From Arctopsyche grandis (lineage: Eukaryota > Arthropoda > Insecta > Trichoptera > Hydropsychidae), in NCBI RefSeq assembly GCF_051622035.1, contig NC_135360.1, positions 9,600,001 to 9,664,000 of the forward strand: a stretch of DNA of 64,000 bases, in the 5' to 3' direction. Position numbers and translations under genes: made by a program. This document shows positions 5,169-59,721 of the stretch, in pieces. A model generated the notes under the pieces. That model saw only the letters and a program-made list of their open reading frames with translations. It ran no database searches and was not told where the DNA came from. The stretch's first letter is position 1; each line of letters starts with the position of its first letter.

Positions 5169-5322
5169 CAGCGGCGTGGACTAGTGGTTAGTATATTATG
5201 CTTTCGAGCAGAGTTGCCATGGGTTCAACTCCCACTAATCAATCCCACCGCTAGCCAGACCTCTTGCTAATATCAAGTTATTCAGCGTCTGCAGGCTCGC
5301 CAATTTGATTATAAAAATGCTG
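5169..5322 (+). repeat. tRNA-headed SINE, head type III, internally shortened
   Basis: Begins CAGCGGCGTGGACTAGTGG, with a Pol III A-box-like TAGTGGTTAGTAT and a B-box-like GGTTCAACTCCC about 35 bases later. It shares head and tail (TCTTGCTAATATCAAGTTAT...TTATAAAAATGCTGC) with the copy at 11249. Between them it goes straight from GCCAGACC to the tail, so the conserved core (CGATCGTTTCCTATC...) is missing. Confidence 0.75.
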
Positions 5323-7016
5323 CAAAAATTTCTCCCTAGATGTCATTGTGGATGTTTGTATAAATTTGCATTGTATAAAATGCATATGCATATTGATTGT
5401 ATTGTGTGATTGTATTTGTATAAGTGCATTCGTCGCTTTGGAGCGAGCTGTAGAAGCGAGTGTTCATGTTCTATGATATAAAATTAAAATATTGCACTCA
5501 TGTAAAGTTTCATTGAAAAATGTATTCGGGATAATTGCGGGAAATGGGTATGTCCGAAACGGTACATAGGATATTTTTAAATCTGAAAGCATCTGGTCGG
5601 TCTATGGAGCAAACTCCCGATAACATAACCGTGCAAATGAAGCTTTCTTCATATGCAAATTTATAATTAAAATTCAGATACGAGCGACGTGAACCGCACG
5701 ACGCTTATATATTTACAAAATTGTCTAGATAGAAAACTGTTAGGGTATCTACATACATGTATGTATATATATGTATATGCATATCTATTGTGTCTACATA
5801 TGTATTATAAATAAAAAAAAGTGTTATTGTATATATGCTATCTATTATGTCTACATATGTATTATATGTATGTATGTAAAAAAATAAGTAAATTATTGCG
5901 AGAGGAATATACGTATGTAAATAATATGTAGAAAATTTAATTTTAAAGTGCATGCCGAGAGTGCACGTAAAATGGAATTAAAATGAAAAATGCACGATGT
6001 GCAGTCGTAAAAACCCTTTCATTACAGACTATAAAAAACTTTGTAGTAGTCAAGAGATATGTATATGATATTTGAAGCGGTGGTTTATAATTTCCCATGT
6101 GGACCCATTTTAAAATCAAAATATATCTAAAGTGTGCCAAAGGCTAATTTTTTCAAAAAACGAGTGCTAATTAATTATAACGAAGTGCAAAAGCAATTTT
6201 TTTCGTGATAAGTGCATGTTTTCATTAGAAGAAGTGAAATACGCCGCAGGAGAAAATTTTAAGAAATGTTTTCAAAGAAATGGAACAATTTTCTTTCGAA
6301 TATGTCTGTGATTACGGATATATTTTCGCACAATACGTAATGAGATGAAATTATTTATTTAGCTGTCGTTTGGTGTCTACTTTTGATATATATATGTATA
6401 AAGCTCACAATTCATATATTGCATGACTGAGTCAATTATGATAAATTTTTATTGATTAACGAGAAGTCGCCATTAAAAACGCGCTGCGCTTTGTAGTGAG
6501 TGTTTGTATAGAGGAAGCGTTTTATGTATTCGGAAAATCGTCATTATTTTCATGTTGCCGTGATTATTTTGAGAATAAAAGCCGTTGAGATATATGTATG
6601 TAGTTTTAATTTGAACAGAAAAAATACTCAAAATATTTACAAATTTTATGAAATAGAAAAGCCAAAATGATCTACATATTTTGATGCAAAATGTCATGTA
6701 AAAACAGTTAGTAAAAATTTGGCCTCCTAAACGTAATATGTATACAGATGTATCTACATACATATATAATATCATGAAATGTACAGAATGAGGATATTTT
6801 TAGCACGTATGTACATACATACATACATATGTATGTGGAATTGTCTTAAAATCAATAAAAATAAACAGGAAAACTCGTCCATAATTTGGTTTTGCTATCA
6901 TCCTAATCGAAATATTAAAAATTTCTGTATTTATTTGATCACAAACTTCGTTTGATTTGGTCAGTAAATACATACATATATATGTAGAACAGTAACTTAT
7001 TTACAAAAATATAATA
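5323..7016. other. AT-rich region, no gene seen
   Basis: Several tracts of ATGTATGT and ACATACAT (for example 5745-5780, 5860-5880, 6590-6605, 6805-6836) and no exon-like sequence. The ORFs at 5705-6775 are low-complexity Tyr/Ile/His translations of these tracts. Confidence 0.4.
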
Positions 7017-7060
7017 TCAGCCACTGACTACTTGACTATTTTCAAGTAGTCAGTGGCTGA
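7017..7060. repeat. perfect 19-bp inverted repeat (hairpin)
   Basis: Arms TCAGCCACTGACTACTTGA and its exact reverse complement surround a 6-base loop CTATTT. With 19 perfect pairs this is the cleanest short hairpin in the window, and it is more GC-rich than its surroundings. Confidence 0.85.
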
Positions 7061-7120
7061 GTGTTGGACAAAAAAACTTAAAACAATAAGCGGTTTACTA
7101 ACTGTCCATTTTAATAAACA

Positions 7121-7630
7121 TATGTTACAGTGAAACTATTATTTCGAGTGAAATTATAATAATTATAATTCAATAAATTGAAAAATATTAACAAAGAGAG
7201 TAAACTTCAGCGTTATTGATTATTAAAACTAGATTTTGGAAAATTTTTAAATAAGTAAACTCAAAATGTTAAATGAAAATAAAATCTTCTTCTACATATT
7301 TTGACAATAATATCTTTGTTTAATTCAATTTAGTAAAAGCGTCATTCGGGTCTTCAGAAACTTTATTTTCATAGTTTTATTTCACACTATATATGTATGT
7401 ATGTATGTATAGTAATATCAATTAATTATTGAATCATAAAGCATTCTATAAAACAATCTTAAGTTGATATTTCACTATCATTCAACTGTCAAAATTTATA
7501 ATTTCACTAATAGCAGCAAGTGAATATGTAATTTCCGTAGTGAAAATATAACTATACCCGGTAAAATGTAATCGGATATGAATTACACGTAATTACAATT
7601 TCAATGCTGTCATAATTTCACTGTAACAAC
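7121..7630. mobile_element. candidate MITE with TGTTACAGTGAAA inverted ends
   Basis: TGTTACAGTGAAA near 7122 recurs as the reverse complement TTTCACTGTAACA near 7617-7629. Between them, short copies of TTTCACTA and GTGAAATTATAA occur in both orientations, as in the subterminal repeats of MITEs. No clear target-site duplication was found, so the exact ends are uncertain. Confidence 0.4.
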
Positions 7631-7859
7631 ACTGTACATGTACACACATAAAATGTTAAACTTATTATCATAGAAGTTAATGACCATTTACCGAAAAAAA
7701 TCGACCACTTAAATTGTCGCCATTAAAAGCTCAAAACTAAAATATATGCAATAGAAGGGAAAAAAAACTTGATAACAGTTGATAAAAATCGACATTTTCC
7801 TCGCAGTCATGAATCACTTTTTATACGTAGCAGAATCGTATCACACTATAAACGCAGTT

Positions 7860-8320: not shown

Positions 8321-8689
8321 CGTTATTTTATGAATGAACATTTTGCGTAACGCTTGATGACTTTGGACTTTGTATGGTGTGTCAGCTATGCATATTACTA
8401 TATTTTGTGTTGCGTCAACGATAGATAAATTTAAATTTAGAGCTTTTGACTAGGGCAGTGATATGAACTCTTCGAATGCATCATCGACTACCTATAACTA
8501 TTTACATAGCATTGGACAAAGGCCTGTCAAATTATTCTATAATTTATATATACGCAGTTTTTCAGAGTTCTACAAAAACTCCACGAACATATGGTCCAAA
8601 GACTATAAAGGTGCAGGCACATACTGGTTGGTACCCGGTGTTTTTTAGATGAAAAACGCCGGCAGTCTATACTCAAAACACACCCTCAG

Positions 8690-9514: not shown

Positions 9515-9795
9515 TATACCACGAAGACCTAACAGGTAAACCCCAATGCGCCTTCCTGGCCAATTATAAACAAAGCAACATTTTTTTTATTACAATCAAT
9601 CAGTTTTAACTTGTACAATAATCATACTCAAATAGTGGTGACATAGTAGGTAGGAAGGTTTTTAACTAATTTAATCAAGGAACCGTTTCAACAATGAAAT
9701 CAAAAAAATTGGCAAACTTTGATAGGATACGATCGACCTGTAGTCACTTAGTATCTAACATACCACTTATTGTGAATGAGATAAAAACATTACAT
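9515..9795 (-). repeat. SINE core with the 'CAGGAAGGCGCATTGGGG' tail, headless
   Basis: Reading the minus strand gives the shared core GTCGATCGTATCCTATCAA...GATTTCATTGTTGAAACGGTTCCT, then CACCACTATTTGAGTATGAT. The tail CCAGGAAGGCGCATTGGGG is shared with the copy at 35195. No tRNA-like head is visible, so this copy is 5'-truncated. Confidence 0.75.
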
Positions 9796-9879
9796 ATTTT
9801 CAACATTGCTATCCAAAGTCAAACATATTCATGATTTGTCTAATTTTATTTGATGGATGAAAATCCGACAACGTAAAAG

Positions 9880-10660: not shown

Positions 10661-11248
10661 AATTAACACATCGGGTCAATTGACTCGTAAATACGTTCGA
10701 AATTAATTTTTACGAACCGCAACAGTCTCTCAGCGAGGCCATTAATAAAAAGCACATAAAGCGTGTACCTACCACCAATTAATGGATATTTATGTCCGTT
10801 CTGGTTTAACTTTTCACCAAACGCACACACACAATGGCCATCGGAATCGAATAGCGTGAGTCCAATATCGACGAAAAATAAGGCACAAGAAAATGAAAAT
10901 AAAAGGAAAAACACAAATGCTAAAAGATTGTAGATATGAAAAAAGTTAGGCTACAATGCCGAATCGATATTGTTTTTGCGAAACGTCACGCTTACCATAT
11001 TCTATACACGGCTGAGAAAAAAAAAGGAAAACCAACGGGTCATTTACACCGATTTATTTTCGATACATTTTATTTGTTTTTAAAGTGGTGTATTTGATTT
11101 AAAGAATTCCCTAGTCACTTTTTCATTAAAGTTAGTGGCGTAAAACATGGCATAAAACACAAGCTGCACGCGACTTTTTGCGCATTTGTTCAATTAATGA
11201 GGCTTGATTATTTTGTAAATATTTACATATGAGCCGTTATATTTAAAC

Positions 11249-11505
11249 CAGCGGCGTGGACTAGTGGTTAGCATATTATGCTTTCGAGCAGAGTGGTCAC
11301 GGGTTCGAGGCCAGACCTTGGTTTGTGATGCAGGTCGATCGTTTCTTATCAGAATTTGCACATTTTATCTGATTTTCATCGAAACGGTTCCTGTAAAATT
11401 GGCATCTCCCTTACTATCTCTCTTGCTAATCTCAAGTTATTCAGCGTCTATAGGTTCACGAATTTTATTATAAAATGCTGCATACCTGTATAAAAATAAA
11501 AAAAA
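11249..11505 (+). repeat. tRNA-headed SINE, head type III with full core
   Basis: Head CAGCGGCGTGGACTAGTGG, A box TAGTGGTTAGCATAT, B box GGTTCGAGGCC. Then GCCAGACC, the core (GGTCGATCGTTTCTTATCAG...ATCGAAACGGTTCCTG), the tail CTTGCTAATCTCAAGTTATT and an A-rich end next to a Harbinger-like MITE. This copy proves that head III and the common core belong to one element. Confidence 0.85.
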
Positions 11506-11800: not shown

Positions 11801-13418
11801 CGATGTCCACAAAAAATGTGAAAGATTAAGGTGACAACAATGAAATAACATAATCCTTATAAAGTATCAACTAAGGAGGTTCTATGCTATATGTATACGC
11901 ATATCTATCTACCTTTCAACAAAGCAGAAGAATCCAATTCAGCTCCGATATGTTTTTAGTCTGAATTGAGAATCTGAATCACATGTTTCTTTTTTTATAA
12001 AATGATATGTTAGAAAAAAATCGGCGACTTCTAACAGAATACATATATGTATCAAATACCTATTTAGCTATGTATAGGTACATAGGAACAGGTATACTAG
12101 TGGGTATAGAAGCATATTATATGTCCAACGGGTAGATACAATTCTCAGGAATGGGAGAAGGACGCTCGATGTGTGGTCACACTATTCTTCGGGAGTGGAT
12201 GCGGTTTTGCGGTGAGAGTGCAACTCGTCGTGCAAGATTCCCAGAACGTGAAAGCAAAAAAGTGTAAAAAAAACCTGCATTAAGTGCATTCGATACGTTG
12301 GGAGTTGCACGTTTTACACCATATATGTATGTAAAACAATAGTGATGATTGCTGCAAGTGTCGGGCAATTGGATTGGATAAATTAATAATTAAAACCGCA
12401 AAATAAATATTTTGGAAGACAGCAATTTTCCGAATATACATTATAGTAAACACATTGTTGCTTGCTGTTAACAACTATTTTATGTTCGTTTTTACCTTGT
12501 GCGAAATATACGCAAATTTTGTGTGTTGAAATTTTATATTCAACACGTGGCTTAAATCTATTATGCATAACTATGCCCAATAGTGGTGCATGAGCATAAT
12601 TATGATCAATGAATAATGATTTGATTTGAACCTTATAAAAGGAGTACATATAAAATTTTATGAGTTATGCTATGCAAAATTTTGATAACGTAAGTAATAT
12701 ATTTATGTGTCATGAATCAAATCATATTACTGAAACATAATAAAGGATATCGAATTAATTACATACACTAAACTTGTTAGCCTCGTACATCTGCTTTTGC
12801 TCCAAAAGAGTATTTTTATTTGTTTTTGTCCTTTATTTAACACAATTTTAATTTAATAAAATTTACGAAATTTAAACTGCATAAGTATATAAAAGTCCTC
12901 AAAAATCATTATATTTTTTAATGCTAGAAACACCTATATCGATATAATAATGTGACATATTTTTCATCAAATCACAATACATATGTGACTATGACATAGG
13001 CACTTCTTACATTAATGTAACTTCTTACATTCGCTTATGTATGTATAAAAAATTGAAAACCATAACCATATTGTATACATATGGTTACGATATATGAGCC
13101 GTTTATTTGAAATTGACGTAAGTCCACTTTTCTTCACATTGAGAGATATCCCGCAAAACATTAAATATAATGTTTTGCATTTTACAATCTTTAAAAATAA
13201 TGGTAATACGTTTAATCTGCTTTTCCGGGATTCTGCACATATCGAATTAAAAAAATTGTGAATTAAGTCAAACAGAAAGTGTTTTTAGAACTGAAAATTG
13301 GACTTCCGCCACTTTTAAATATGTTTAATAGAATGGCCCATACATATGTAGAGGTTGATCAAACAGTTTTCATTATCTATTGAATACAATGTGTACAATT
13401 TTAGATTTATTTCATTAA
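11801..13418. other. AT-rich region, no gene seen
   Basis: No exon or intact element recognised. A perfect 11-bp hairpin, GCAAAACATTA-aata-TAATGTTTTGC, lies at 13153-13178. Small ORFs at 12177-12649 are antisense-overlapping and not supported. Confidence 0.35.
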
Positions 13419-13419
13419 A

Positions 13420-13650
13420 CATAGCTCAGTAGTTAGCGTATAATGCTAACAACTGAGGGTTCGAGCCCTGATCTAGTGTTGCTGGTCAGACCTCGATATA
13501 GGTGACTCCAGATCGATCGTTTCCTATCAGAGTTTGCCAATTTATTTGATTTCGGTGTTGAAACGCTTCCTACCCTCAATGGAGACAAAATCACCATTAT
13601 TAGAATTAAATTTCAAATTCATAATTCAATAAATTTATATACAGTACATA
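13420..13650 (+). repeat. tRNA-headed SINE, head type I
   Basis: Head CATAGCTCAGTAGTTAGCG...GAGGGTTCGAGCCCTG has the classic A box and B box of a tRNA gene, but no closing acceptor stem. It is followed by TTGCTGGTCAGACCTCGATA, the core GATCGATCGTTTCCTATCAG...GTTGAAACGCTTCCT and the 'TCACCATTATTAGAATTAAATTTCAAATT' type of tail (shortened phrase: ACCATTATT...TTTCAAATT). Confidence 0.85.
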
Positions 13651-14159
13651 TGCATAAAATTGGCCACATGTGTCACATTGGGGCAACCCATAATTGCACC
13701 ATGGTTTATATAAATAAAAAAATAATTTTAATTATATAAATAGTATGAACATGCTAACATTTCAAATTTAAATTTAGTAAATATGTATGTAAGTGAAGCT
13801 TCAATAAAGTAACAAAAACGCAGAACCGTAAAGGAGCTGTTGAAAACTTTGATTGCTCCAAAAAAACCTTGCAATCTCATCGATGTAAACGCTCTACTAT
13901 ACACGGCTTTTCAGATACATTCAAGTTTTACTCCATTATGCTTTTTTATTCCATCCTATGTAGGTATATCGTATTGCATATTTAAATTCCATTATACTTT
14001 GAGTTGTTCTGCACGTTCGCATTGTATAAAGTCTGCCGCACACTCGGCGATCAAACGCGAGACGCGTCAACACGCCTGGTCTATAAATTTACCCTCAAAC
14101 CATCGAACATAAAAAATACCAAATCAAATCGAATACGCCATAAATATTAAATTATAAGA

Positions 14160-15140: not shown

Positions 15141-15233
15141 TTTTATGTTGTGTCTTCTTTTGTTATTTTTACTGAATTTTACAATTTTATTCTAATAATA
15201 TACCCGATGATATTTAATCTGGCCTATCTTATA

Positions 15234-15412
15234 TCTAATATATAATTAGGAAAGAGACTTTGTATGTATATATGTATCCTTCGTTCGTTGGGTCTTAGAA
15301 ATCCATGACGTCATCGAACAAATAATTCGCTTTTTTCCATGATTCAAAGGATTCGAAGTTCCCGGGGGCGTAGGCGCCGAGGGCGAAGCCCTAGAGGGGG
15401 TAATACAGCTAG
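15234..15412 (+). mobile_element. short Helitron-type element
   Basis: Starts TCTAATATATAATTAGGAAA...GAGACTTTGTATG and ends in CTAG, set between A and T as Helitrons are. Close matches to its start are at 28198 and 35615. The 3' region contains GGCGCCGAGGGCGAAGCC, a degenerate form of the family's terminal hairpin. Confidence 0.65.
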
Positions 15413-15559
15413 TAATATATAAAACTTATTATTATAGTAAATAATAATATAATATTAGTAATTAACTTTAATTTAATATTTAATGTTTTTTTTTTCTTAT
15501 ATGCGAAAATTTTAAAAGGGTTTATCTTTTAATAATTATATTATACTAAATAAAACCGA

Positions 15560-15757
15560 AAACGCTTCTGAAATTCGTTTCTGATTGGCTATCGTAAAAG
15601 TCGTTTCTGATTGGCTGGATTGGTCAGACATTTGTAATTGGTCGGTCGTTATTATATTTTTTTTCGGTTCAAATGAATTTAATAAAAAAACAAATGAAGA
15701 TTTTTTTTCATCGGGTCATTTCATTTCTATATACCGAGCGAAGCCTTGTAGCACTAG
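15560..15757 (+). mobile_element. Helitron-type 3' end
   Basis: Shares TTTTTTTTCGGTTCAAATGA and ATACCGAGCGAAGCC...CACTAG with the copies at 28198 and 35615. It ends in CTAG before T. The 5' end is not recognisable. It contains a tandem phrase CGTTTCTGATTGGCT, twice, at 15575-15615. Confidence 0.65.
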
Positions 15758-17640
15758 TAGTATATCAATATAAATACTACTCAATGGTAATTTAATTGAA
15801 CAATTTAGTAGAGACTCCAATTTATATATTCATATTATTTAAGAGTTGATAACTATGTACATAATATTTTTTTTTGATTCAAGTTTTTAGATATGAACAT
15901 ATATGTATGTTAAAATTTTAGTTGTTAAAATGTATGTAGTTATTTAATAATGGAATCAAACTATAATTACGATACCTTTTTTTCGACAATGAGGTTTACT
16001 ATTTTTTACTATTTTAAGAATAAATATAATTTTAACCATAATTTATTTGTCAAGGGAATTTTTGGTTCGATAAAAGATTCTTAGAAGTCGAAATATTTAT
16101 CTCTCGTAGGGTCATTCGTAGCATCTACATACATGTCTATAGACAAGTATACGCGAAAAGCTTTATCGTGTTATATAAAGATTTATATATGTATACATAT
16201 TTGTAGAATATTAATATTTCGAATTGTACAAATGAAGAATATTATATTTTGATACGCACCCATATAATAGTAATTGAGCTTTTTAGACACCATAATAAAA
16301 ATACATCTACATACTTTGTAATCAAAAAGTTCGCAATCAAGAATGTCAAAAAATCAACTCCCTTCCATATAAGTAGCGTGTTTGACTTCATAGTAGTCAA
16401 AAATACTTTTCTCAGAAGCATTCCTCATTTTGCCTTTTTTAACTTAAATTTAAGTGCCTCAAAATAGAAAGCAGGGCAACTAACTTATTATAGGACAACT
16501 TCAATGGTACATACATACATATATACACACTTATATATTCTCTTATGGGTGATGTATGTATGTATCGTATGATTTCAAATATCATGAAACACTATTCAAT
16601 GAAGCCTCGTTTTCTTTGAGATATAAATAAATAGTACGACTAGACTGAATTAAACGTATACCTATGAGAAATGTAAGCAACTTCTGAGTTATTATCTTTG
16701 AACGAAACTAAGATACACCTTTTAAAAATCACAATATCCCGATTTAAACTCTTACTTTCGACTAAAAATAGCCGAAAATCCACGACTCCTACTCTAAATC
16801 TTATAGTTTTATAATTAGTTATACAAGTGTTACTACCATATTGGGAATCGACCCACGAATCATCAGTTCATCAGTTCAATGCTCTGTCTACAACGGCACG
16901 AATTGTAATATCGGTTTATTTTCTGAAAGAGTTATATAAGAACTTATCATACATCAATGTTGTTAGTATTGAGGCTATGATCTAAATAAATTATGCACAT
17001 TGTTAAGACATAACGGTGTGCTGACTCGTCCCAATTTCAAAACAATCATTCAATATTAAAGGAGATTGCCACACGACCACGGCGATCGTTTGATGTGTAA
17101 TATTATCATATGTGAATTTACAATTGGTTTTTGTGGTGAATTTATTATTTATATCCATAAATATATCCCAAAATAGAACTACATATATAGACGCTAATTT
17201 CGTTTTCATCGCCTGACCGTACAAAAGTGCATGCGCTGTTTAAATTCAAATATAGCCAATGAGCTAACTAGTTTGCAGACAAACCACGCGAACTCAAAAT
17301 CTATCAAGTCGTAAATTTGACTTGGAATTAGGCGAAAAAAATATCTGATTGCCAATGGGGTGGGGAAGAAATTAGCTCTTGTCACGCACTCTGCTCGTTT
17401 TCGGCGATAAAAAGAGGATTTAATTGAATACGAAAAAATAGATAAGTCGAAAAGTTCACACAAAATTTATACTGCATTATAAATAGCTTTAAACTCATCC
17501 GGCCTCGCAAAGCCTACAGTTCTTTAAATTAAATTTTTAAAAACGTAATGGGCAAAAACTCAAATTCAGAATTTTTTCAAATGTAATTACGCACACACAT
17601 GCAATAAAAAAAGGATTCAAATGAAAACGCTACTAACGTA
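15758..17640. other. AT-rich region, one possible SINE head
   Basis: At 16840-16905 the minus strand reads GAGCATTGAACTGATGAACT...GTGGGTCGATTCCCAAT, resembling a tRNA-like head with a B box. Otherwise no gene or element recognised; ORFs at 16249-17463 lack domains. Confidence 0.35.
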
Positions 17641-18384: not shown

Positions 18385-18566
18385 CTTAGGTTGCCAAATT
18401 GTTTGGAACCGTTTCTATCATACAATGAAATCAGATAAATGGGCAACCGATCGACCTGGAGTCACAAATATACGAGGTCTGGCCAGCAGCACCTGGCCAG
18501 CGATTGAACCCTTGACCCTTCAGTTCATAGCATTATACGTTAACCACTGAGCTATATTGCTGGTTT
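18385..18566 (-). repeat. tRNA-headed SINE, head type I
   Basis: Minus strand: AGCTCAGTGGTTAACGTAT, then GGGTCAAGGGTTCAATCGCT, TGCTGGCCAGACCTCGTATA, GACTCCAGGTCGATCGG and the core ATTTCATTG...AACGGTTCC. The last part (TTGTATGATAGAAACGG) is diverged. Confidence 0.8.
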
Positions 18567-25416: not shown

Positions 25417-25715
25417 GCCAGCAGCATAGCTCATAGTGGTTGCGTTAATGCTAACCACCGAGAGGTTCCTTGATTGAAAATAATTTATTTGGAAATATTT
25501 CTGTAGTGCTGCTGGTCAGACATGGATATTTGTGACTCCAAGTCGATCGTTTCCTATCGAGTTTGCCAATTTATCTGATTTCATTGTTGAAACGGTTCCT
25601 CATCGAATTTGCAAACCATCCTATCCACTATATCACCACTATTTGAATATGATTTCAAATTTATAATCTATAATTTTATATATGGACAAGTTGGTATCAT
25701 GGGGAAATATAAACA
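25417..25715 (+). repeat. tRNA-headed SINE, head type II with spacer
   Basis: CAGCAGCATAGCTCATAGTG...GCTAACCACCGAGAGGTTCC, then the type II spacer GAAAATAATTTATTTGGAA, then TGCTGGTCAGACATGGATAT, the core AGTCGATCGTTTCCTATCGA...GTTGAAACGGTTCCTC, and the tail TCACCACTATTTGAATATGA, ending near GGTATCATGGGGAAAT. The second half of the head is rearranged (the expected GGGTTCAAGCCC is lost). Confidence 0.85.
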
Positions 25716-25719
25716 TAAA

Positions 25720-26434
25720 ATCAATCAAATATGTTGTGATTTTCATACATTAAAATACAATTTGAACTGCTCAACATACTTTTTGACCAAAATGTGAAAA
25801 AAATGGTGGTCGATTCACACATTATTTGATCATACAAATTGAATGAAAAACGATAATAAAAAAAACTAAACGCTAAATCTAATAAGAATAATGATGAAAT
25901 AAAAACTATTTTCCAATAAGAATGTTTTCAAAATGGACAAAGATCAAAAGCAAACCTTACACGGTCAATAATACCGTCATTACTGCACGCCATCAGCATT
26001 AATGACAGCATCCCCTCCACCCTCCAATACTGAAGCTCTGATATCAAAATATTCAGATATAAACGTCATTACTTGCCGTCAACATCGAAAGTTTTCACGA
26101 TCAATAATTCTGTCTATATTTGATAGTAAACTTGATGAAAAAGTGAGTAATATGCAAATTACATTTACAAAAATATCTACATTTTCAATTTCGATTTGTA
26201 CACGCGCGATTAACCTTAACGTACACGCTCTCGACAATATCAGAGAAATCTCAAGAGCGCACTTGAAATTACAGGGACAGATTTAAAATAAAAATGCTAA
26301 ATTATTACAGTCTTTGCATTCGATTATCGTTAAAATTCCAAAGTGACTCCAATAAGGCACACTCAAAAAAATAATCAAAAAATTGAGCACATCGAATCGA
26401 GTTTTTTTCCCAATCGGACGACTCTATGTACATA
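25720..26434. other. AT-rich region, no gene seen
   Basis: A 94-codon plus-strand ORF (26002-26286) has no recognised domain and ordinary AT-rich composition. Nothing else seen. Confidence 0.3.
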
Positions 26435-27492: not shown

Positions 27493-28197
27493 CAATTACG
27501 ATATTACAAAACCTACATTTCAAAACAAAAAAAATGTTGGCAGCTTCTGCCAGACAAAAAGCGCAACGTCTCATTAGGGTTGACTCACAGGGTAAATCGG
27601 GGATGGGGTCTGCGTCACCCCAATCCTCTTATTGTGACGTCACCGGGTAAATATTTGTGTCATCCCCCTCCCCATCAACCCCCCAATCTATTGTGCGAAC
27701 GTGTGATGAATAGTTACGGTTGATAAATGCTGCATTCGCCACTTGTGCACCCCACTTATTGGTATAAATACATATATCTATTCTTATTAACCGGACGTTC
27801 TCAAAATGTGACTAAAATAAATATACATACATATGCATAGTAAAAAAACACAAGAACAGTATCTATTTCGTTTTGGATAGTTTCACATATCACAATATCA
27901 ACTATCGTAACCCAGGCCAACGATATGAGAGATTAAAGTTATATTACAAACATATGTCATGGTTATATCTACGAATATATGTAGTTTCAGATATAGAGAA
28001 GACCTTTGCACGCGCACATCAATTGTAACGTCAATTAAGGTTGTAGTAAAAAAGGCGATGTAATATAATCGCAATTAGGAAATGACCTCGACCCATTTTA
28101 AAAACTGCAAATGAAATGATATCGCTTACACATGGATGTGCTATTAAGTCGAGGAAACGGAAAATGGAAATAGGCAAGTTATTCCCAAAGATCTTCA
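27493..28197. other. no supported gene
   Basis: 27550-27720 is GC-richer and open on the plus strand (to TAA at 27721), without a known domain. The rest is AT-rich. Confidence 0.3.
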
Positions 28198-28437
28198 TCT
28201 AATATATAATTTCGAAAGAGACTTTGTAACTATGTGTATATGTAAAGTTTGTTGGGAATATCGAAAATTAATCAAAATTTTCTATGGCAACGATATCTAT
28301 AGCGTTAAATATATTTTTTTTCGATTCCAATAAATTTAATAAAAAAACAAATTAATGTTTACTGTTATGTAGATTGTTTTGACATGTTTAAGCTGTTTAT
28401 ATTACAAATACCGAGCGAAGCCGGGTAAAACCACTAG
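28198..28437 (+). mobile_element. non-autonomous Helitron, complete
   Basis: Begins TCTAATATATAATTTCGAAA...GAGACTTTGTA and ends ATACCGAGCGAAGCCGGGTA...CCACTAG, inserted between A and T. The GCGAAGC hairpin followed by CTAG is the Helitron 3' signature. At 240 bp it cannot code for a Rep/helicase and must rely on an autonomous relative. The best-preserved copy in the window. Confidence 0.8.
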
Positions 28438-29052
28438 TATAATATAAGTATACTTATACGACTACCTGGTGAATAATTTCAGTTGTTATAATAAACGATA
28501 AATGCAGTGGGTTTGGTTTGATCGGTTAATTCGGCTATTTGGGAAAAATCCCAATAAACGAAAACCAAATGAAGAAATTAAAGGTAATCCTTCAACTTCG
28601 TTTATTAGAAATTAAAGGTAATCCAGCTGGCTTTTTGGGACAAAATATTTCGGCCTGATGTGTCCTAATTGATCGGAGTCCTCCGTTATCATAATAAACG
28701 ATAGATCATTATAATTAATGACAAATAACTACGATAAATGGTCAGTACATTCAGGTCAGTAAATAAATAGCTAATCAGTATTTTATTTGTATTAACTTTT
28801 TTTGAATGTTTAATTTCATTTTGACAGCTGGTTTGTAACATGACATACGAAATTCCAAATACCTTACATAAATAAATATTCTTACACGGCTACTGACAAA
28901 TTGCATTTGATAATTGACCAAAAATTTTGTTTGTCCAAGTATAATATGAATAATTAAGATTGATTAAAGCCTTCAAACGAGTTCTGAATAGATTCTAACG
29001 AGTTTCTCTTTCCAGATATACATACATACACATTTATACGACAATATTGATG
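28438..29052. other. region with short duplications
   Basis: ATAATAAACGATA occurs near 28489 and 28691, and GAAATTAAAGGTAATCC near 28575 and 28609. No gene or complete element recognised. Confidence 0.35.
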
Positions 29053-35194: not shown

Positions 35195-35608
35195 TACCAA
35201 GAAAGCTTGACAGGAAGACCCCAATGCGCCTTCCTGGACAATTAATTACAAACAATGCAGCAATTTTTTTTTTATTATTACATAAATCACTGTATTTCCA
35301 AAAGCTGAAGAATATGAAGTAACAATTAATTTAATTAATTAATACAGAATTAATGGATTTTATATTTTATACATACTTTTTACAAATTATACTCACAATA
35401 AATACAGAATATTTGTGACAACAGGAAAGGATTTTTTTGGCAATTTGTGGAATCGTTTCAACAATGATCAGATAAAATTTGCAAACTCTAATAAGAAACG
35501 ATCGATTCAGAGTCACAAATATCCCCAAATCTAACCAGTAGTTTGGCGGATCGAACCCACATCACATGGTGCTAAACATACACGCTACCACTAAGCCAAA
35601 CTGCTGTT
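35195..35608 (-). repeat. tRNA-headed SINE, head type IV with CAGGAAGGCGCATTGGGG tail
   Basis: Minus strand: CAGCAGTTTGGCTTAGTGGT (A box), GGGTTCGATCCGCC (B box), CTGGTTAGATTTGGGGATAT, core GAATCGATCGTTTCTTATTA...CATTGTTGAAACGATTCC, and finally the tail CCAGGAAGGCGCATTGGGG shared with 9515. It shows a fourth head on the same core and a tail different from heads I-III. Confidence 0.8.
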
Positions 35609-35614
35609 TGCAAA

Positions 35615-35923
35615 CTGAATATATAATTTCGAAAGATACTTTGTATGTAAGTAAATATTGTTGGTTGGATAATGGTTGCGAACTTCGAAAACAAGTCAAA
35701 ATTTCCATGATGACATGGGGACGGGGGACGGGGGTGAAGGCCCGGGGGGCGCTGAGGGCATTCGCCGGAGGGGAACTTCGAAAATAAAACAGTTTCTATG
35801 ACGATTCGATATATTTTTTTTCGATGCAAATGAATAAAAAACAAATGAATATTTACAATTAGATTCGCCATGTTTAAGCTGTTTATATTACAAATACTAA
35901 GCGAAGCCGGCTAAAACAACTAG
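35615..35923 (+). mobile_element. non-autonomous Helitron with GC-rich insert
   Basis: Start GAATATATAATTTCGAAAGA matches 28198; end ATACTAAGCGAAGCCGGCTA...CAACTAG. Between them, 35715-35775 is a G-rich stretch (GGGGACGGGGGACGGGGGTG), foreign to the family, that resembles the GGCG-rich part of 15360-15400. The first base pair of the 5' end is changed. Confidence 0.7.
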
Positions 35924-36057
35924 TATATAATAATATCACATTTTATAGTAAATATGTATTATGTTGATTTTAATATTACTTTTTTTTTTATTAAAATTAA
36001 GTCGGAATTATTATATATTTCACGGCATTCAAATACAGAGTGGCATATTTAATATGA

Positions 36058-39428: not shown

Positions 39429-39760
39429 CCAGCAGCATAGCTCGGTGGCTGCGCTAATGCTAACCATCGAGAGGTTCCCGGGTTCAAGCCCTGGATTGAC
39501 CTCGATTGAAAATAATTTATTCGGAAGTATTTCTGTAGTGCTTCTGGTCAGACTGAATATTAGTGACGATCGATCGTTTCATATCAGAGTTTGTCAATTT
39601 ATCTAATTTCATTGTTGAAAAGGTTCCTCACAAAAATTGGCAAACTATGTATGTCACTATGTATGTCATCACTATTTGAATATGATTTCAAATTTATAAC
39701 CTATAAATTTATGTCGTTCAAGGGCAACCCGTAATGCCATCATGGAAACATATAATTTAA
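39429..39760 (+). repeat. tRNA-headed SINE, head type II, most complete
   Basis: CAGCAGCATAGCTCGGTGGC (A box), GAGAGGTTCCCGGGTTCAAG with B box GGTTCAAGCCC, spacer GATTGACCTCGATTGAAAAT...TTCTGTAGTGCT, TCTGGTCAGAC, core CGATCGATCGTTTCATATCA...CATTGTTGAAAAGGTTCC, tail ATCACTATTTGAATATGATT, ending near CCATCATGGAAA. Best reference copy for head II. Confidence 0.9.
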
Positions 39761-40034
39761 ATATATGAATAAGCAGAGATGGCGAAAGAGTAGTGTGGAG
39801 GAAGTCCAGATTTCAGTCCAAAAAACACTATTTCAGTTTGGCTTAATTCACAAATTTCTCTAACTACTTTTAATACAGTATGTCCAGAATCTTGGAAAGA
39901 CATAATAAACTTATAACAGACCACAAGTATTTTTAAATATTATAAAAAGCAAAAGCTTATATTTAATGTTTTGCAAAATATTCCTGAAATGAAGAAAAAT
40001 GGACTTACGCAAATTTCAAATATAACTAAATTAA

Positions 40035-40190
40035 ATCAGATAAGTTCGGCAAACTCTGATAAGAAAGATGGACCTGGAGTCACATACTAAATCCAAAGTC
40101 TGGCCAGCAACAGCGGACCAAGGCTCGAACCCGTGACCCCTCAGTTTTAACATGATACGCCAACCACTGAGCATGTTGTTGGTTAATATA
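40035..40190 (-). repeat. tRNA-headed SINE, head type I
   Basis: Minus strand: CATGCTCAGTGGTTGGCG (A box), GGGTCACGGGTTCGAGCCTT (B box), TGCTGGCCAGACTTTGGATT, GACTCCAGGTCCATC, then the start of the core. 3' part truncated at the phrase TTATCTGATTTAAT. Confidence 0.8.
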
Positions 40191-41779: not shown

Positions 41780-41935
41780 TGTCATTATCTATGGTATTAA
41801 GCTTGAAATCATATTCAAATAATGGTGACGTAGTGGGTAGAATGGTTTTGTCAATTGGATGAGGAACCGTTTCCACAACGAAATCAGATAAATTGACAAA
41901 TTTTGATAGGAAACGATTGACCCAGAGTAGAGCTG
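41780..41935 (-). repeat. SINE core and tail, headless
   Basis: Minus strand: TCAATCGTTTCCTATCAAAA...GATTTCGTTGTGGAAACGGT, then CCACTACGTCACCATTATTT and TTTCAAGCTTAATACCAT. 5' end truncated at CTCTACTCTGGG. Confidence 0.75.
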
Positions 41936-42157
41936 CCATACGTCCCGGTTTATAGATACATGTGTTCCCATGTCCATGAGTCAGTTGCCCAGGTATTATA
42001 TCTAGCAGTCAGTTAGTCAGACAAAAACAAGTACATGTGGGAATGAAAGGTGTAAGGGCGGCAGGGGGCCAAGGACAAGTGCGAATTAGTAGTCGGATAT
42101 GAGTCGCCAGATCTAATAACATGCTCATATCCAGAGATCTTCCACTATTGTCAACCT

Positions 42158-42677
42158 TTAAGAGGGCTGGACAGCAGCACCTTGTCCATACAAACGTACT
42201 ATACTTTTCCCTTCCTCAATTATGGCACTAGAGAAATTATTTTTTAATATGCTATGGATATCCACCATTGGGGTGCATCTATCGTTTTATTTTTTTGATT
42301 AATTATTTTTTATAGGACATAGGAGCCGCCAAACATCTATAAAATCGCCTCTTTTTTACACCCACGAAACGGGTCCAGCGTGCTTATTTAACGGTCGATT
42401 TAAAAAAAAAATACGCCGATAGATGCACAGAAAGTATCTTTCTCATACCGATGATGATTTTTTTTTTTAAATTGGTCCAGTTTTGGAGGTGAAAATAGTA
42501 GAATACGAAACCTCGATTTTGTCAATTTAAAATACGTTTTATCTGGTCGAAGCGCAACTGTCGCATTCACTCAATATATATATTGTCGCATTCACTCAAT
42601 ATATACATACACTCAATATATATATCGAAGAAAGGAACGGTAACAAAATTAAGGTTTCGGGTGTACAGCCTTCTTAA
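42158..42677 (-). mobile_element. piggyBac-like MITE copy A, TTAA-flanked
   Basis: Bounded by TTAA at both ends, with inverted repeats GAGGGCTGGACAGC and GAAGGCTGTACACC. It is the reverse-complement counterpart of 49843-50369; the two can be aligned nearly throughout (for example TGGATATCCACCATTGGGGT and AACCTTAATTTTGTTACCGT). A short tandem array of 'gtcgcattcactcaatatata' type units (20-base core TCGCATTCACTCAATATATA) sits at 42560-42625. No ORF of note. Orientation is assigned relative to copy B. Confidence 0.9.
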
Positions 42678-42898
42678 CCAACCTCTACCGACCTCTAGTC
42701 CACTATTGTGAACGTTTTTTGTGCTCCCTTGCTTTGTAGGATAATAGTAACAGACAATTAAATAGTTTAAATTACTCGCGAGCTAAGAATATTTAAATAA
42801 AACTGCAAGTTTGTCGATTGAAGTTTAAATCGTGAGTTTTTCAATTCTACCTTCTATCTTTCAATTCCCAAGCGGCATCGATAATTACGGCAGCTTAG

Positions 42899-43052
42899 AA
42901 TCACAAATATCCAAGTCTGACCAGCAGCACTACAAAAATTCTTCCAAATAAATTATTTTGAATCGAGGTCAATCCAGAGCTTGAACCCGGAACGCGGAAC
43001 CTCTCGGTGGTTAGCATTAACACAATCATCAAGCTACGCTGCTGGCTAAATG
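42899..43052 (-). repeat. tRNA-headed SINE, head type II, core truncated
   Basis: Minus strand: CAGCAGCGTAGCTTGATGAT...GCTAACCACCGAGAGGTTCC, GGGTTCAAGCTC, spacer TTCAAAATAATTTATTTGGA, TGCTGGTCAGACTTGGATAT. It stops at GTGATTC just before the core. Confidence 0.8.
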
Positions 43053-43124: not shown

Positions 43125-43252
43125 ATACCCAGCGAACCCAATCAGCAGGATTATAGAAATACTTCCGAATAAATTATTTTCAATCGAGGTCAACCCAGTG
43201 CTTGAACACCGGAACCTCTCGGGGTTAGCATTAACGCAACCACTGCTGGCTC
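43125..43252 (-). repeat. tRNA-headed SINE, head type II, short
   Basis: Minus strand: CAGCAGTGGTTGCGTTAATG, CCCGAGAGGTTCCGG, TGTTCAAGCACTGGGTTGAC, TTGAAAATAATTTATTCGGA, ending after TTCTATAATCCTGCTGATTG. Only head and spacer remain. It lies within 75 bp of the previous copy, in the same orientation. Confidence 0.75.
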
Positions 43253-45335: not shown

Positions 45336-45409
45336 CCATAAGATCAAGATGAGCAGACATCCCTTACTCAGAGGGTATATTTATTATATTTTTTTTACAT
45401 TTTATTCGT

Positions 45410-45595
45410 CAAGATAATTGGCAAACTCTAAAAAGGGAGCGACTTGGAGTCACAAATATCCAAGTCTAACCAGCAGTACTACAGATTATACTCGGAATAG
45501 ATTATTTTCAATCAAAGTCGACCTACGGGATCGATCCCGGCAATCTCTTTATGTGGTTAGCATTAACACAACCACGAGGTATGCTGTTGGCTATT
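45410..45595 (-). repeat. tRNA-headed SINE, head type II
   Basis: Minus strand: GCCAACAGCATACCTCGTGG, GCTAACCACATAAAGAGATT, a diverged B box GGGATCGATCCC, spacer TTGAAAATAATCTATTCCGA, TGCTGGTTAGACTTGGATAT, and the core start GACTCCAAGTCGCTCCC...AGTTTGCCAATTATC. Confidence 0.8.
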
Positions 45596-46899: not shown

Positions 46900-47000
46900 A
46901 CGTGTTGTGAATCAGCAAATTGATCCAGATCGACCATCACCTGTTAGACTTTGCCAATTTATCTTGACTTAATTGTTTTAACGGTTTAATAAAAAAAACA
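46900..47000 (+). repeat. SINE core fragment
   Basis: GATCCAGATCGACCATCACC...CTTTGCCAATTTATCTTGAC, TTAATTGTTTTAACGGTTTA: the shared core only, diverged. Starts 6 bp after the TAA of the Harbinger-like MITE. Confidence 0.6.
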
Positions 47001-49842: not shown

Positions 49843-50369
49843 TTAAGAGGGCTATACACCCGAAACCTTAATTTTGTTACCGTTCCTTTCTTCGATATAT
49901 ATATTGAGTGTATGTATATATTGAGTGAATGCGACAATATATATCAATATATATATTGAGTGAATGCGACAGTTGCGCTTCGACCAGATAAAACGTATTT
50001 TAAATTGACAAAATCGAGGTTTCGTATTCTACTATTTTCTCCTCCAAAACTGGACCAATTTTTAAAAAAATTTGATCATCGGTATGAGAAAAATACTTTG
50101 TGCATCTATCGGCATATTTTTTTTAAATCGACCGTTAAATAAGCACGCTGGACTCGTTTCGTGGGTGTAAAAAAGAGGCGATTTTATAGATTTTTGGCGG
50201 CTCCTAGCTCATATAAAAAATAATTTATCAAAAAAAATAAAACGATAGATGCACCCCAATGGTGGATATCCATAGCATATTAAAAAATAATTTCTCTAGT
50301 GCCATCATTGAGGAAGGGAGAAGTATAGTACGTTTGTATGGACAAGGCGCTGCTGTCCAGCCCTCTTAA
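49843..50369 (+). mobile_element. piggyBac-like MITE copy B, nested in the hAT
   Basis: TTAA at 49843-49846 and 50366-50369; ends GAGGGCTATACACC and (read backwards) GAGGGCTGGACAGC. It is the inverted counterpart of 42158-42677. The shared sequence includes CGAGGTTTCGTATTCTACTA and CAAGGCG(C)TGCTGTCCAGCC. The TTAA duplication is exact. Confidence 0.93.
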
Positions 50370-50557
50370 GGGCGTTGTAAAATTTGCAAATTTCTTCATG
50401 ACGGTGTAATTCCTTTAAATCAGCATCCCACTGTAAATATATAATCTTAATTTATATCTCCGTCGATACGCTATCAATATATGTATATTGCAATTGATCT
50501 CGTATAATTCCGAAGTCTATCTCAATTTTTCGGAAGTCGCCGAATCTTCATGGAAAC

Positions 50558-57012: not shown

Positions 57013-57013
57013 A

Positions 57014-57363
57014 TCAGTGGCGTAACTTTTCTAATATACATACTAATACAAAAAATTTAATCACCTAGGAATTATTCAAATGTTTCAAGGGAAAGAAAAA
57101 ATACAACAATATTTTACTGTTATAGTAATAATTAAATCCATATCAAGGTATTTTTCATTTAAAATACAAATAGGTTAATCTTAAGCTATAAAGCATTGTA
57201 CACATTTTATTCAACAGTAAAATTGATCTCTTAAGTATTTTTAATAATTCGGTAATCCCTGTATTGTCGACCAATTGCACCTCGTTACAGAACTTACACT
57301 TCACTAATCATATGCTTATTGAATACTGAATCACTCCGTCTTCACGTCATAGTTACGCCACCG
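57014..57363. mobile_element. hAT-like MITE candidate with GTGGCGTAACT ends
   Basis: CAGTGGCGTAACTTTTC at 57014 and, read backwards from 57363, CGGTGGCGTAACTATG. The inverted ends are about 14 bp, with an AT-rich interior. No target duplication identified. Confidence 0.45.
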
Positions 57364-57934
57364 ATAACAAAATAATTCTCAGAAATGTATCGACATAAAC
57401 TCCACTGTTCACATAAAAAAGAGAATAAATAGTTGAATGACGAATAAAACATCAGTATACACCTTACAAAAAATAATCATCACGGTGTGTGACAACGTTT
57501 TTAATTCTATCCACATAATAAATAAGATGTCATATTTACATCTTTTTGTAATGTCATATAAATATTATAATTTAATGGGTCGTTGCGTCATGAATTGAAA
57601 CTTTCAAGTATACACATGATTTTTGTTTATTAAATCCGTCAATCAATGACAGTATACACAAATACAATAGATGCAAGTCATGTTGGTGAGGAGAAAAAAA
57701 ATATTTATCAGTCAATTTCTTATTTTGTTGTTTTAGAACGTTTTAATATGTATTCATATAAACCATGAGAGTCTACATAAAGCCCGGAGACGGGTAAAAG
57801 TGGTTGGTTGCACAACATATACAAATACACACATCATAAGCATACATACATATGTGTTAAAAGTAATATTTATAATACTTTTTCACATTATTCATGTAAC
57901 TCACCATTTTATCACACTTCCTAGTAGATTTAAT

Positions 57935-58008
57935 TCAATAATAAGCCGGTGCTCCACCGTATTCCGGCTTTGCCGAGTAGTCCACAGACGCTCCATAAGC
58001 GTGCGAGT
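57935..58008 (-). CDS. prion-like RGG/GPM protein, coding exon 8 (C-terminus)
   Basis: Last exon: acceptor AATTTCAG (AG at 58010-58009), then DSHAYGASVDYSAKPEYGGA ending PAYY and TGA at 57937-57935. Its phase fits exon 7 (one carried base). An aromatic, small-residue end like this is usual in low-complexity RNA-associated proteins. The 3' UTR runs leftward; an AATAAA on the minus strand at 57631-57626 is a possible poly(A) signal, but such hexamers are common in this AT-rich sequence. Confidence 0.85.
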
Positions 58009-58114
58009 CTGAAATTGCCAACACAGTCAACGTTTAAAAATGTACACACATAAACACACCCAAACTGGTCTCATTACAATACAAAACATGAACAATCATC
58101 GTATCAGATATTAC

Positions 58115-58284
58115 CATAAGAAGAATACGCAGTTTGTTGCACTGGCGGCGGTTGTTGATAAGAGACAGGCGTCGAATATTGAACTGGAGCGTACTGAGGT
58201 ACACCTGACTGATCGTACCCCGTAGCTGAAAGGTTGTACTGATCGGAGTACACCGGAGCCGATTCAGACGAAGGATATTGAGAG
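58115..58284 (-). CDS. prion-like RGG/GPM protein, coding exon 7
   Basis: Acceptor TTTTTTCAG, donor GTAATA (GT at 58114-58113). 170 nt in phase with exons 6 and 8. Encodes SSQYPSSESAPVYSDQYNLS, ATGYDQSGVPQYAPVQYST and PVSYQQPPPVQQTAYSSYG: tyrosines evenly spaced among Ser, Gln, Pro and Gly, the 'sticker and spacer' composition of phase-separating proteins such as FUS. No folded domain. Confidence 0.88.
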
Positions 58285-58361
58285 CTGAAAAAAGTTATCA
58301 ATCATACTTTAAATACAAAACATTGCAATTTTATAGTGCACCGAATCGAATTGCAGCGTAC

Positions 58362-58502
58362 CTGTAATCGGTCACTTCGTAGCCCTGCGTCGACTGCGGC
58401 ACCGCATTGGAATAAACCGGAGCCGAAGCGTAAGATGCACCGCCCTGGGAAGCTCCATACTGCAGATTGTTTCCCATATATCCGCTGTCGTTGGAATACG
58501 AG
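58362..58502 (-). CDS. prion-like RGG/GPM protein, coding exon 6
   Basis: Acceptor TTCCATCAG, donor GTACGC. 141 nt, which preserves the frame (a symmetric exon that could be skipped without a shift). Encodes SYSNDSGYMGNNLQYGASQG, GASYASAPVYSNAVPQSTQG and YEVTDY. Confidence 0.88.
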
Positions 58503-58577
58503 CTGATGGAAGTAATATAATTAAAAATGAGTAATATAATTAGAAAAGAGTGAATGAAATTTATTCAAATATAATAC

Positions 58578-58646
58578 CTCTGTGAATACTGTGTTTGCTG
58601 ATAAGATTCATTGGGAGTATTGTCATATTGCTGGTATCCAGAGTGA
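58578..58646 (-). CDS. prion-like RGG/GPM protein, coding exon 5
   Basis: Short exon of 69 nt: acceptor TGTTTTTCAG, donor GTATTA. Encodes HSGYQQYDNTPNESYQQTQY then SQ. Length divisible by three, so it too could be skipped in frame. Same phase at both borders as exon 6. Confidence 0.85.
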
Positions 58647-59721
58647 CTGAAAAACATTAAAATTTTATTTCATACACAATAACTGTTTTATATGATGGTG
58701 TCTGATCTGATCCATACAATTACAAAAATGATTTGATTGAAGAAAATAACGATGGTTGCAGAACAAAGACCATAAATAAATAGACCGTGTAACAAAATTA
58801 GAAATACGGTAATTTTTAGTAATTAGCTAAAAAGCACCTATACTAAACACTTTGCAAGCGGGTGGGTCATGCGGCCTACCGATGGGCGAATGCGGGCATA
58901 GTTTTTTCGGGACCCACAAGTCCAAGCGCAGACTACGTAAATACGAGAATCCTCGTGACACGCCGTCAAAGGTTGGCTACTCAAACACGAGAATTTTCAT
59001 TACCCACTTGCAAAGTATTAAGAGTCTGGAACTATCACTAACTAATGAATGGATGTAAATAGTCTGCAGTATAGCTAGGTGCTTACATTAATGCTAACAA
59101 CCAAAAGGTTTTACGGTTAAAGCTCTTGGTTGACCTTGATTGAAAAGATTGTTTTTGGAAGTATTCCTGTAGTACTGTTGGTCAGACTTGGATATTTGTT
59201 ACTCTATGTCGATCGTTTCTTATCAGATTTTGCCAACATATCTGATTTAATTGTTCTTCATCAAATTATCAAAACCATCCTACCCACTATGTCACCACTA
59301 TTTGAACATGATTTCAAATTTACATATATACAAGTTTAATACCATAGGTGTCACTCAAGGGCAACCAATAATGGTATTATGGGAAAATATATACGTATAT
59401 AAAATCATGATGAATATATCTTTCCAAATATGATTATTTTTCACCATCGAACTATCAGAATCGATTTAAATTTCTCACATTGACCAAACCGCGCAAAATT
59501 ACTAAGTTTTAAAACGATCAGACGACTGTAGGAATAGATACTGAATCGTTAGCGATGTGAGACATAGAAAAGCCTTGTAAAAAGAACCCAATCAGTCCTA
59601 AAGTTCATTCGCCGCACTATTTTAAGAATGATGATAGAGTGAAACTGTTCCCAATGACTTATTCCTCCCAAATCTTTATGGTTCAGATTTATTTAATTAC
59701 AAAAACATAATAAATACTTAC
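58647..59721 (-). other. intron 4 of the prion-like gene
   Basis: The gene's second-longest visible gap. It carries the SINE at 59062 and, at 58850-59050, a GC-richer block of unknown origin (GCGGGTGGGTCATGCGGCCT). No exon was seen in it, and the phases on both sides join directly. Confidence 0.6.
59062..59385 (+). repeat. tRNA-headed SINE, head type II, inside an intron
   Basis: GCAGTATAGCTAGGTGCTTA, GCTAACAACCAAAAGGTTTT, a diverged B box GGTTAAAGCTC, spacer GACCTTGATTGAAAAGATTG, TGTTGGTCAGACTTGGATAT, core TGTCGATCGTTTCTTATCAG, tail TCACCACTATTTGAACATGA, ending GGTATTATGGGAAAAT. It lies in the 1,075-bp intron between exons 4 and 5 of the prion-like gene, in antisense. Confidence 0.85.

Follow-up and report, generated by a model that had tools for sequence, protein, structure and literature searches.

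Superfamilies of short interspersed elements (SINEs) such as the CORE-, V-, Deu- and Ceph-SINEs occur in distant taxa and carry different heads. Catalogued SINE families of insects are few: the available text of one survey counts 23 in SINEbase. It also lists the superfamily names CORE, V, Deu and others, and its authors state that none of these named domains is the body of their PxSE elements (PMC8010984). According to the accessible part of a report on Helicoverpa armigera, the heads of the tRNA-derived SINEs HaSE1 and HaSE2 are 95.7% alike and the HaSE1 tail is common to an RTE long interspersed element (LINE) (PMC3272025). Lepidopteran SINEs that have a central domain in common yet differ at their 3' ends are, as far as these partial texts go, already known (PMC3272025, PMC8010984). 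In zebrafish L2 LINEs, the loop of the 3' stem-loop is recognised specifically and the stem generally, as stated in the available portion of that work (PMC4176376). SINE bursts have been reported in cocoon- and tube-case-building caddisflies, for which the accessible sections give class totals only (PMC8881205); in the accessible sections of two caddisfly genome papers, SINEs appear as class totals or without any family being named (PMC8881205, PMC6302954). Here we analysed a stretch of 64 kb ("the window", C6:9,600,001-9,664,000) from the caddisfly Arctopsyche grandis, in which repeats with differing ends share one core. We read these repeats as members of one old, tRNA-derived clan of SINEs in which the core is conserved and the heads have drifted apart, with mobilisation through a LINE-type 3' hairpin, and give this reading a probability of roughly 0.75. 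Among the open-literature matches listed for the core and tail letters, three papers contain one 14-letter word each and treat other subjects by title; no description of a caddisfly SINE family was among the matches listed for caddisfly SINEs.

A profile built from eight core copies found 11 copies in the window, all at E ≤ 2.6e-5, whilst the best match across 20 first-order Markov versions of the window had E = 0.98. A weak match at 45394-45450 (E = 0.079) was retained since a type II head adjoins it; another at 39608-39660 (E = 0.082) is probably chance. With three head-bearing loci that lack a listed core (5169, 42899, 43125), the total is 15 loci (Table 1), in line with the roughly fifteen copies of a shared core claimed in the initial annotation. 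That annotation gave all copies a core of about 75 bp. The core itself stood, but the common block is longer, starting at the 3' acceptor strand and linker (TGCTGGTCAGACC...), and the three loci just named are coreless. The head coordinates it gave are correct, with those at 18385, 35195, 40035, 42899, 43125 and 45410 on the minus strand.

The core is abundant throughout the genome. In the whole assembly (475.7 Mb, 189 contigs; counts are lower bounds), the first 20 core bases with up to two mismatches matched at least 25,628 times (12,976 and 12,652 on the two strands), whilst the reversed 20-base pattern gave 0 matches. The repeat is thus short, dispersed and present in high copy number, as is a tRNA-derived SINE. 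In 264 kb sampled independently of the core (the window and twenty 10-kb stretches of C1), 23 cores were found at E ≤ 1e-3, or about 87 per Mb, and we therefore extrapolate to about 41,000 copies genome-wide. Exact-pattern scans for the core among viral contigs found none, and one bacterial contig held a match, which we attribute to chance.

Conservation was compared in a sample of 118 cores, taken from the window, the 20 regular stretches and 88 sites with the exact first 20 core bases. The 88 sites are biased toward well-preserved cores, and all sampled loci outside the window lie on C1. Likeness of core and head could be measured in 60 of the 118 copies, 10 of them unselected. Between head families, core positions 21-60 were 70.5% alike and heads 58.4% (1172 pairs); the unselected copies gave 67.7% and 57.1% (39 pairs). 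Within head families the values were 79.8% and 74.9% (598 pairs), and 66.7% and 69.1% for unselected copies (6 pairs). Across the 1172 pairs the core thus exceeds its flanking modules in conservation, as does the central domain of a SINE superfamily. The core presumably has a function. RNAalifold returned no structure for the gapped core alignment.

Assigned by best profile, the heads of the 118 copies fell into type II (61 copies), III (25), I (7), IV (6) and V (1), with two weak and 16 without a head; the headless copies appear truncated, interrupted or cut at the edge of the locus. Finer word patterns assigned 76 copies to head kinds and left 42 unplaced. Nine kinds were compared: seven as majority consensuses, V as a single copy and IV as the window copy adjusted by eye. 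Identity was taken over the whole alignment with gaps counted and the type II insert removed; an earlier measure with permissive gaps was dropped, shuffled heads having reached 74% with it. ARAGORN called 23 tRNAs in a stretch of phage T5, and 18 of them supplied our yardstick, a set of 151 unlike pairs. These pairs, which are of bacterial type, had a mean identity of 53.4% and a maximum of 63.3%, and heads against shuffled heads averaged 45.9%. Identities between head kinds reached 85% (III-IIIo), 83% (IIo-IIy and IIo-VI), 76% (I-IX), 75% (IX-III) and 71% (VI-IV), and single linkage above 63.3% gathered all nine into one group. Intermediates bridge heads I and III (IX) and heads II and IV (VI), and the acceptor strands are similar (CAGCAG.. 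and ..CTGCT). The type II head, described earlier as having an extra spacer, is a type-I-like head with an insert of 34-36 nt ahead of the 3' acceptor strand.

We also checked whether cores follow heads. Cores were assigned to classes II, III and IV via alignment score, whilst head families follow the finer patterns first, which makes the numbers depart from those by best profile. Copies with head II had 45 cores of class II, 2 of III and 9 ambiguous, and those with head III had 18 of class III, 1 of II and 3 ambiguous. Head IX carried 4 of class III and 1 ambiguous, head I carried 2 of III and 3 ambiguous, all four head IV copies had class IV, and the one head V copy was ambiguous. Copies with no head or a weak one had 9 cores of class II, 5 of III, 1 of IV and 3 ambiguous. 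Among unambiguous cores, 45 of 47 type II heads were thus matched with core II, 24 of 25 heads of types I, III and IX with core III, and 4 of 4 type IV heads with core IV. Heads and cores have mostly travelled together.

A- and B-box-like words can be picked out by eye in the heads. A cloverleaf was rejected as the head fold, RNAfold giving hairpins instead for the seven heads folded. By eye, the D-/anticodon-arm region of heads I and II (13418-13492 and 39429-39554) can fold into one long hairpin. Its arms differ, CTCAGT...ACTGAG in type I and CTCGGT...ACCGAG in type II, an apparent compensatory change. The heads may resemble tRNA-Ile, -Glu and -Ala; these were set aside as separate sources.

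Between head and core lies a linker that forms a 7-bp stem around ATATTTGTGACT. In young type II copies the stem is mostly GACCTGG/CCAGGTC; it reads GACTTGG/CCAAGTC in L023 (sampled loci carry L numbers) and GATTTGG/CCAAATC in two type IV copies. Over 25 copies, 88.8% of its cells were paired, with 11 double-change cells against 4.6 in shuffles, and pairing was at most 67% when the arms were slid. Of 34 copies examined, 19 have CCATAGATGTCTC (up to three mismatches) in the body, at a distance of 67-156 nt on the 3' side of the core. Three tails had been proposed initially; one of them, CCAGGAAGGCGCATTGGGG, does belong to the true 3' terminus, but ATCACTATTTGAATATGATT and CTTGCTAATCTCAAGTTATT are body segments about 30-40 nt 3' of the core.

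The true 3' end is a hairpin followed by TAAA-type repeats. In the 118 copies, tail T3 was recognised 65 times, T1 eight times, and T4 and T5 four times each, with no recognised tail in 37. T3 is built as CCAGGAAGGC - GCATTGGGGTTTACCTGTAA - GGCCTTCCTGG, with the hairpin sequence CCAGGAAGGCGCATTGGGGT, and in subfamily III it is followed by the specific bases TATAAATTAAAGATAAAA. It was found behind heads II, III, IV, V and VI. Between IIy and III, T3 is 93% alike whilst the preceding 60 nt are 48% alike, the heads 64% and the cores 89%; the core value is inflated by the exact-20-mer selection, and type II copies without a finer placement are counted here with IIy. The segment preceding T3 is 44-50% alike between IIy, III and V. 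Since T3 is so alike behind such unlike sequence, the tail has moved or been renewed while head and core stayed.

In a scan for similar apical words flanked by complementary arms, 90 of 566 places had a stem score of at least 7. Shuffled sequence reached that score at 35 of 517 places, and arms combined from different places did so in 161 of 2830 cases; many of the 90 are T3. Sixteen hairpins chosen by eye (8 T3, 4 T4-type, 3 from LINEs and 1 unassigned) were then aligned. They share one register with conserved apical letters, one T4 copy being without seven bases of the 5' arm. Over the 12 outer pairs, 89.1% of 184 cells were paired, against 33-45% when the arms were slid. The outer stem had 41 double-change cells versus 11.7 in shuffles and a covariation score of 0.691 versus 0.206; nine outer pairs had a double change, a number that 27 of 500 shuffles reach. 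The four inner pairs were 95.3% paired and scarcely variable. RNAfold gave T3, T4, LINE-A, LINE-B and the L012 hairpin the same layout, in which an interior loop separates the outer stem from an apical stem closing a loop of 4-5 nt; the interior of LINE-B is partly paired. It folded T5 and T1 into hairpins with different interiors.

A covariance model of this alignment had 20 matches in the 264 kb, all at E ≤ 5.3e-4. Eight were already in the model and 12 were new, mostly T3. Two of the new ones lie in SINE-type tails: the T1 tail of the copy at 13418 (13662, E = 5.3e-4) and, at L011:5560-5603, a hairpin of T4 type (E = 1.3e-6). Two others resemble LINE ends, L016:1189-1232 that of LINE-A (E = 2e-8) and L020:5033-5060, a partial match, that of LINE-B (E = 5.7e-6). 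Because the apical part is conserved and the outer stem free while paired, at least T3, T4 and one T1 tail appear to be one hairpin type with different stems.

Comparison of the tails with LINE 3' ends, foreseen in the initial annotation, brought out the same hairpin type at two LINEs. In LINE-A (L011, L024), a frame of 236 aa at L011:4268-4978 stops about 250 nt 5' of the hairpin, which is followed by TAAATAAATAAA. The frame has 45 homologues, on 14 of which PF00078 (reverse transcriptase) is annotated, and its two best homologues are Arctopsyche grandis proteins (86% identity over 76% of the length and 97% over 62%); Pfam gave no match for the LINE-A C-terminal frame itself. LINE-B has its hairpin at L014:2761-2804 and a frame at L014:2869-3495 that is 42% identical to LINE-A over 139 aa. 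The SINEs thus have their 3' hairpin type in common with LINE-A and LINE-B, with differing stems, as in a stringent-type LINE/SINE pair. Upstream of the L012 hairpin, and of a T3-only copy in L019, no LINE was seen by eye among the listed frames, no family search having been made for the latter. On the minus strand of L016, the LINE-A-like hairpin follows 241 nt after the end of a long endonuclease-reverse transcriptase frame, which looks RTE-like by eye and may be an unrelated neighbour of that hairpin.

Subfamilies with T3 look younger, since their head and linker are less diverged. The median divergence from consensus was 6.8-8.1% in IIy, III and VI, the subfamilies that often have T3. In I, IX, IIo and IIIo, where no T3 was seen, it was 10.8-14.5%; the groups hold 4-10 copies each, except IIy. 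Target-site duplications are weak and badly preserved. A mismatch-tolerant test placed them at 8 of 33 copies, against 1.4 expected and at most 4 in 60 permutations, and L084 has a clean duplication of 14 bp.

Put together, a full copy would open with a tRNA-like head with an internal RNA polymerase III (Pol III) promoter, continue through the linker hairpin and a core of some 60-75 bp into a body, which in several subfamilies includes CCATAGATGTCTC, and close with the 3' hairpin and its TAAA-type repeats. One ancestral head would have given rise to I, IX, III, II, VI, IV and probably V, type II gaining its 34-36 nt insert on the way. Pol III would transcribe the element, and a LINE protein would recognise the 3' hairpin and copy the RNA into a new site, as in a stringent-type pair. 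The apical part would serve as the recognition key and the outer stem could change freely while paired, so that tails would be renewed along SINE lineages with the hairpin type held constant. For this the SINEs may use LINE-A, LINE-B or an unseen relative. A broader version, to which we give slightly less than even odds, is that several LINE families and many SINE subfamilies share the hairpin, with an apical key and an outer stem free by compensatory change, and that SINEs pass between LINEs with core and head unchanged. If true, the SINEs would hold a natural record of bipartite tail recognition and LINE turnover.

An alternative for the heads is that different tRNAs were each attached to the core in separate events, as in a superfamily of the CORE, V or Deu type. 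Heads of different families being 58% alike over a core that is 70% alike would fit this, and IIy-V, the lowest pair at 53%, and IIy-IV at 57% fall within the range of unlike tRNAs. Such swapping is nevertheless unlikely. The intermediates IX and VI and the similar acceptor strands speak against it, and because all heads are linked at identities higher than any between unlike tRNAs and mostly agree with their cores, they look diverged, not swapped. The four different heads of the initial annotation, bridged as they are and part of a chain of nine, do not look unrelated, and we reject four independent heads on the connected series together with the head-core congruence. Of its superfamily reading, a conserved core with differing ends is supported (70 versus 58%) but exchange of whole heads is not, and the core was not found joined to unrelated heads, head V (one copy) being uncertain. 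Several results do count against a single tRNA-derived clan of this kind. The nearest relative of head V is IIIo at 65%, close to the 63.3% limit, from one copy, and the seven copies with head VI have mixed cores (2 of class II, 2 of III, 1 of IV and 2 ambiguous). Against the Rfam tRNA model, head IV scored 13.9 bits along positions 1-71, below the cut-off of 29; head III had a T-arm match only (tmRNA, 7.5 bits), no tRNA match was listed for head II (head I was not submitted on its own), and ARAGORN found no tRNA in the window. Only three linker pairs show a double change, matched in 206 of 500 shuffles, and sliding the linker by one column leaves 10 double-change cells against 11, with 67% rather than 89% paired. 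Exact-match target-site duplications had a mean of 3.23 versus 2.65 in 30 copies, with 19 of 200 permutations as high, and most of the eight mismatch-tolerant duplications are AT-rich simple sequence. The covariance model missed the T1 tails at 39698 and 59342 in the 264 kb (T5 was not searched with it), and no LINE with the T3 outer stem was recognised in the window and C1 stretches.

For the tails, the T3 of subfamily III may have come not from a LINE but from SINEs of subfamily II, through recombination or a template switch between SINEs. The sharp change from 93% in T3 to 48% in the preceding 60 nt would suit such a transfer, and the sample is rich in both kinds of SINE. A LINE could also have been the source, because this hairpin type occurs at LINE ends of the genome, in LINE-A together with TAAA repeats, and we hold transfer between SINEs to be a serious contender that falls a little short of an even chance. 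That the likeness of LINE and SINE hairpins is convergence or chance in AT-rich terminal repeats is very improbable. The aligned sequences were picked by eye and stem scores of at least 7 arise in shuffled sequence too (35/517 versus 90/566), but a single register holds over 16 sequences with the apical letters conserved, and the model also finds tails other than T3 outside its own alignment (L016, 2e-8; L011:5560, 1.3e-6; L020, 5.7e-6; window 13662, 5.3e-4). One drifting clan with a LINE-type hairpin remains our preferred reading.

Table 1. SINE loci of the window, with their modules and match scores
Position	Strand	Modules	Scores and remarks
5169..5500	+	type IIIo head 5169-5261, body remnant, T4-type hairpin 5423-5466, no core between	hairpin E=3.2e-11, copy included in covariance model
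9517..9737	-	no recognisable head; core 9678-9737; T3 hairpin 9517-9561	core E=1.5e-18; hairpin E=2.1e-13, outside model
11248..11500	+	type IIIo head 11248-11317; core 11334-11392; III-type body; no recognised 3' end	
13418..13722	+	type I head 13418-13492; core 13512-13571; T1 hairpin 13662-13706	core E=2.9e-19; hairpin E=5.3e-4, outside model
18404..18563	-	type I head 18476-18563; decayed core 18404-18471	core E=1.4e-7
25418..25721	+	type IIo head with insert from 25418; core 25542-25600; body; decayed T1-like end	core E=5.7e-19
35195..35606	-	type IV head 35528-35606; core 35448-35506; T3 hairpin 35195-35239	core E=1.4e-15; hairpin E=4.1e-12, outside model
39429..39770	+	type IIo head 39429-39554; core 39569-39628; T1 tail 39698-39770	tail in T1 profile; missed by covariance model
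40012..40182	-	type I head 40096-40182; decayed core 40012-40073	core E=1.8e-7
41862..41921	-	core; no recognisable head	core E=1.9e-18
42894..43045	-	type II head and linker fragment, coreless	repeat family D6
43125..43249	-	type II head fragment, coreless	repeat family D6
45394..45590	-	type IIo head with insert; core fragment	core E=0.079
46929..46987	+	core remnant	core E=2.6e-5; absent from the initial annotation
59062..59406	+	type IIo head; core from 59208 with internal deletion; T1 tail 59342-59406	core E=1.1e-12; tail in T1 profile; missed by covariance model

The window also holds other repeats and reading frames. Inverted arms of about 520 nt at 42155-42677 and 49843-50372, 93-98% complementary in four pieces and about 7.2 kb apart, surround three SINE head loci; they may stem from a rearrangement or be the long terminal inverted repeats of a DNA transposon. 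Three related repeats (15233-15770, 28197-28447 and 35614-35933) begin near ATATATAATT and finish near GCGAAGCC...ACTAGTA; the type IV SINE adjoins the last of them. They look Helitron-like, resembling lepidopteran elements. On the minus strand, 1892-2761 is an exon of an extracellular sulfatase (SULF-1) homologue that ends ...CCPSR. It is 50-70% identical to three proteins and less so to seven others aligned, including those of Lepidoptera, a flea and a mosquito (34-42%). Of six window frames submitted to Pfam, five were unmatched and the sixth matched sulfatase below the cut-off. A low-complexity Gly/Pro/Met-rich frame (GPMGPGGPMG...) occupies 60334-60831 on the minus strand. Outside the window, L012:7150-9943 (minus strand) holds related frames of 78-123 aa in an array (e.g. 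...THCPVIESLVYPGAHTQAGV...), a repeated protein or a minisatellite.

Among described SINEs, HaSE1 and HaSE2 are close in design. The accessible part of their report describes a shared head and a 62-bp central domain with a differing 3' part (PMC3272025), much as in the present clan; unlike them, the present core carries heads down to 53% alike, a comparison made without the letters of the HaSE core. PxSE1, PxSE2, PxSE3 and their relatives in Lepidoptera, the sister order, likewise combine a central domain, in their case of 44 bp, with varied 3' ends in the available text (PMC8010984). According to the same text they belong to Lepidoptera and one baculovirus, and they were compared by description, not by core letters (PMC8010984). 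The CORE-, V-, Deu- and Ceph-SINEs have a conserved central core and variable ends, as here, again compared without core letters, whereas the present clan comprises one genome and related heads. With tens of thousands of copies and graded intermediates, it can test head exchange against drift around a constrained core. The bursts in case-building caddisflies also concern SINEs of Trichoptera, but of another suborder than Arctopsyche, which the accessible text of PMC12576367 places in Annulipalpia.

For the tail, the nearest systems are the eel LINE UnaL2 and zebrafish ZfL2-1 and ZfL2-2, in which, in the portion of the work available, a 3' stem-loop is common to LINE and SINE, as in Arctopsyche (PMC4176376). 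Unlike those pairs, the present set joins two LINE ends and at least three SINE tail types with a shared apical part and covarying stems, and is known from sequence alone. What is known of this mechanism comes from cell assays on a few fish LINEs, and the tails, with the apical letters kept and the stem free, put it to the test in evolution. Kept apical letters together with paired exchanges in the stem are, by analogy, what loop-specific and stem-general recognition would predict.

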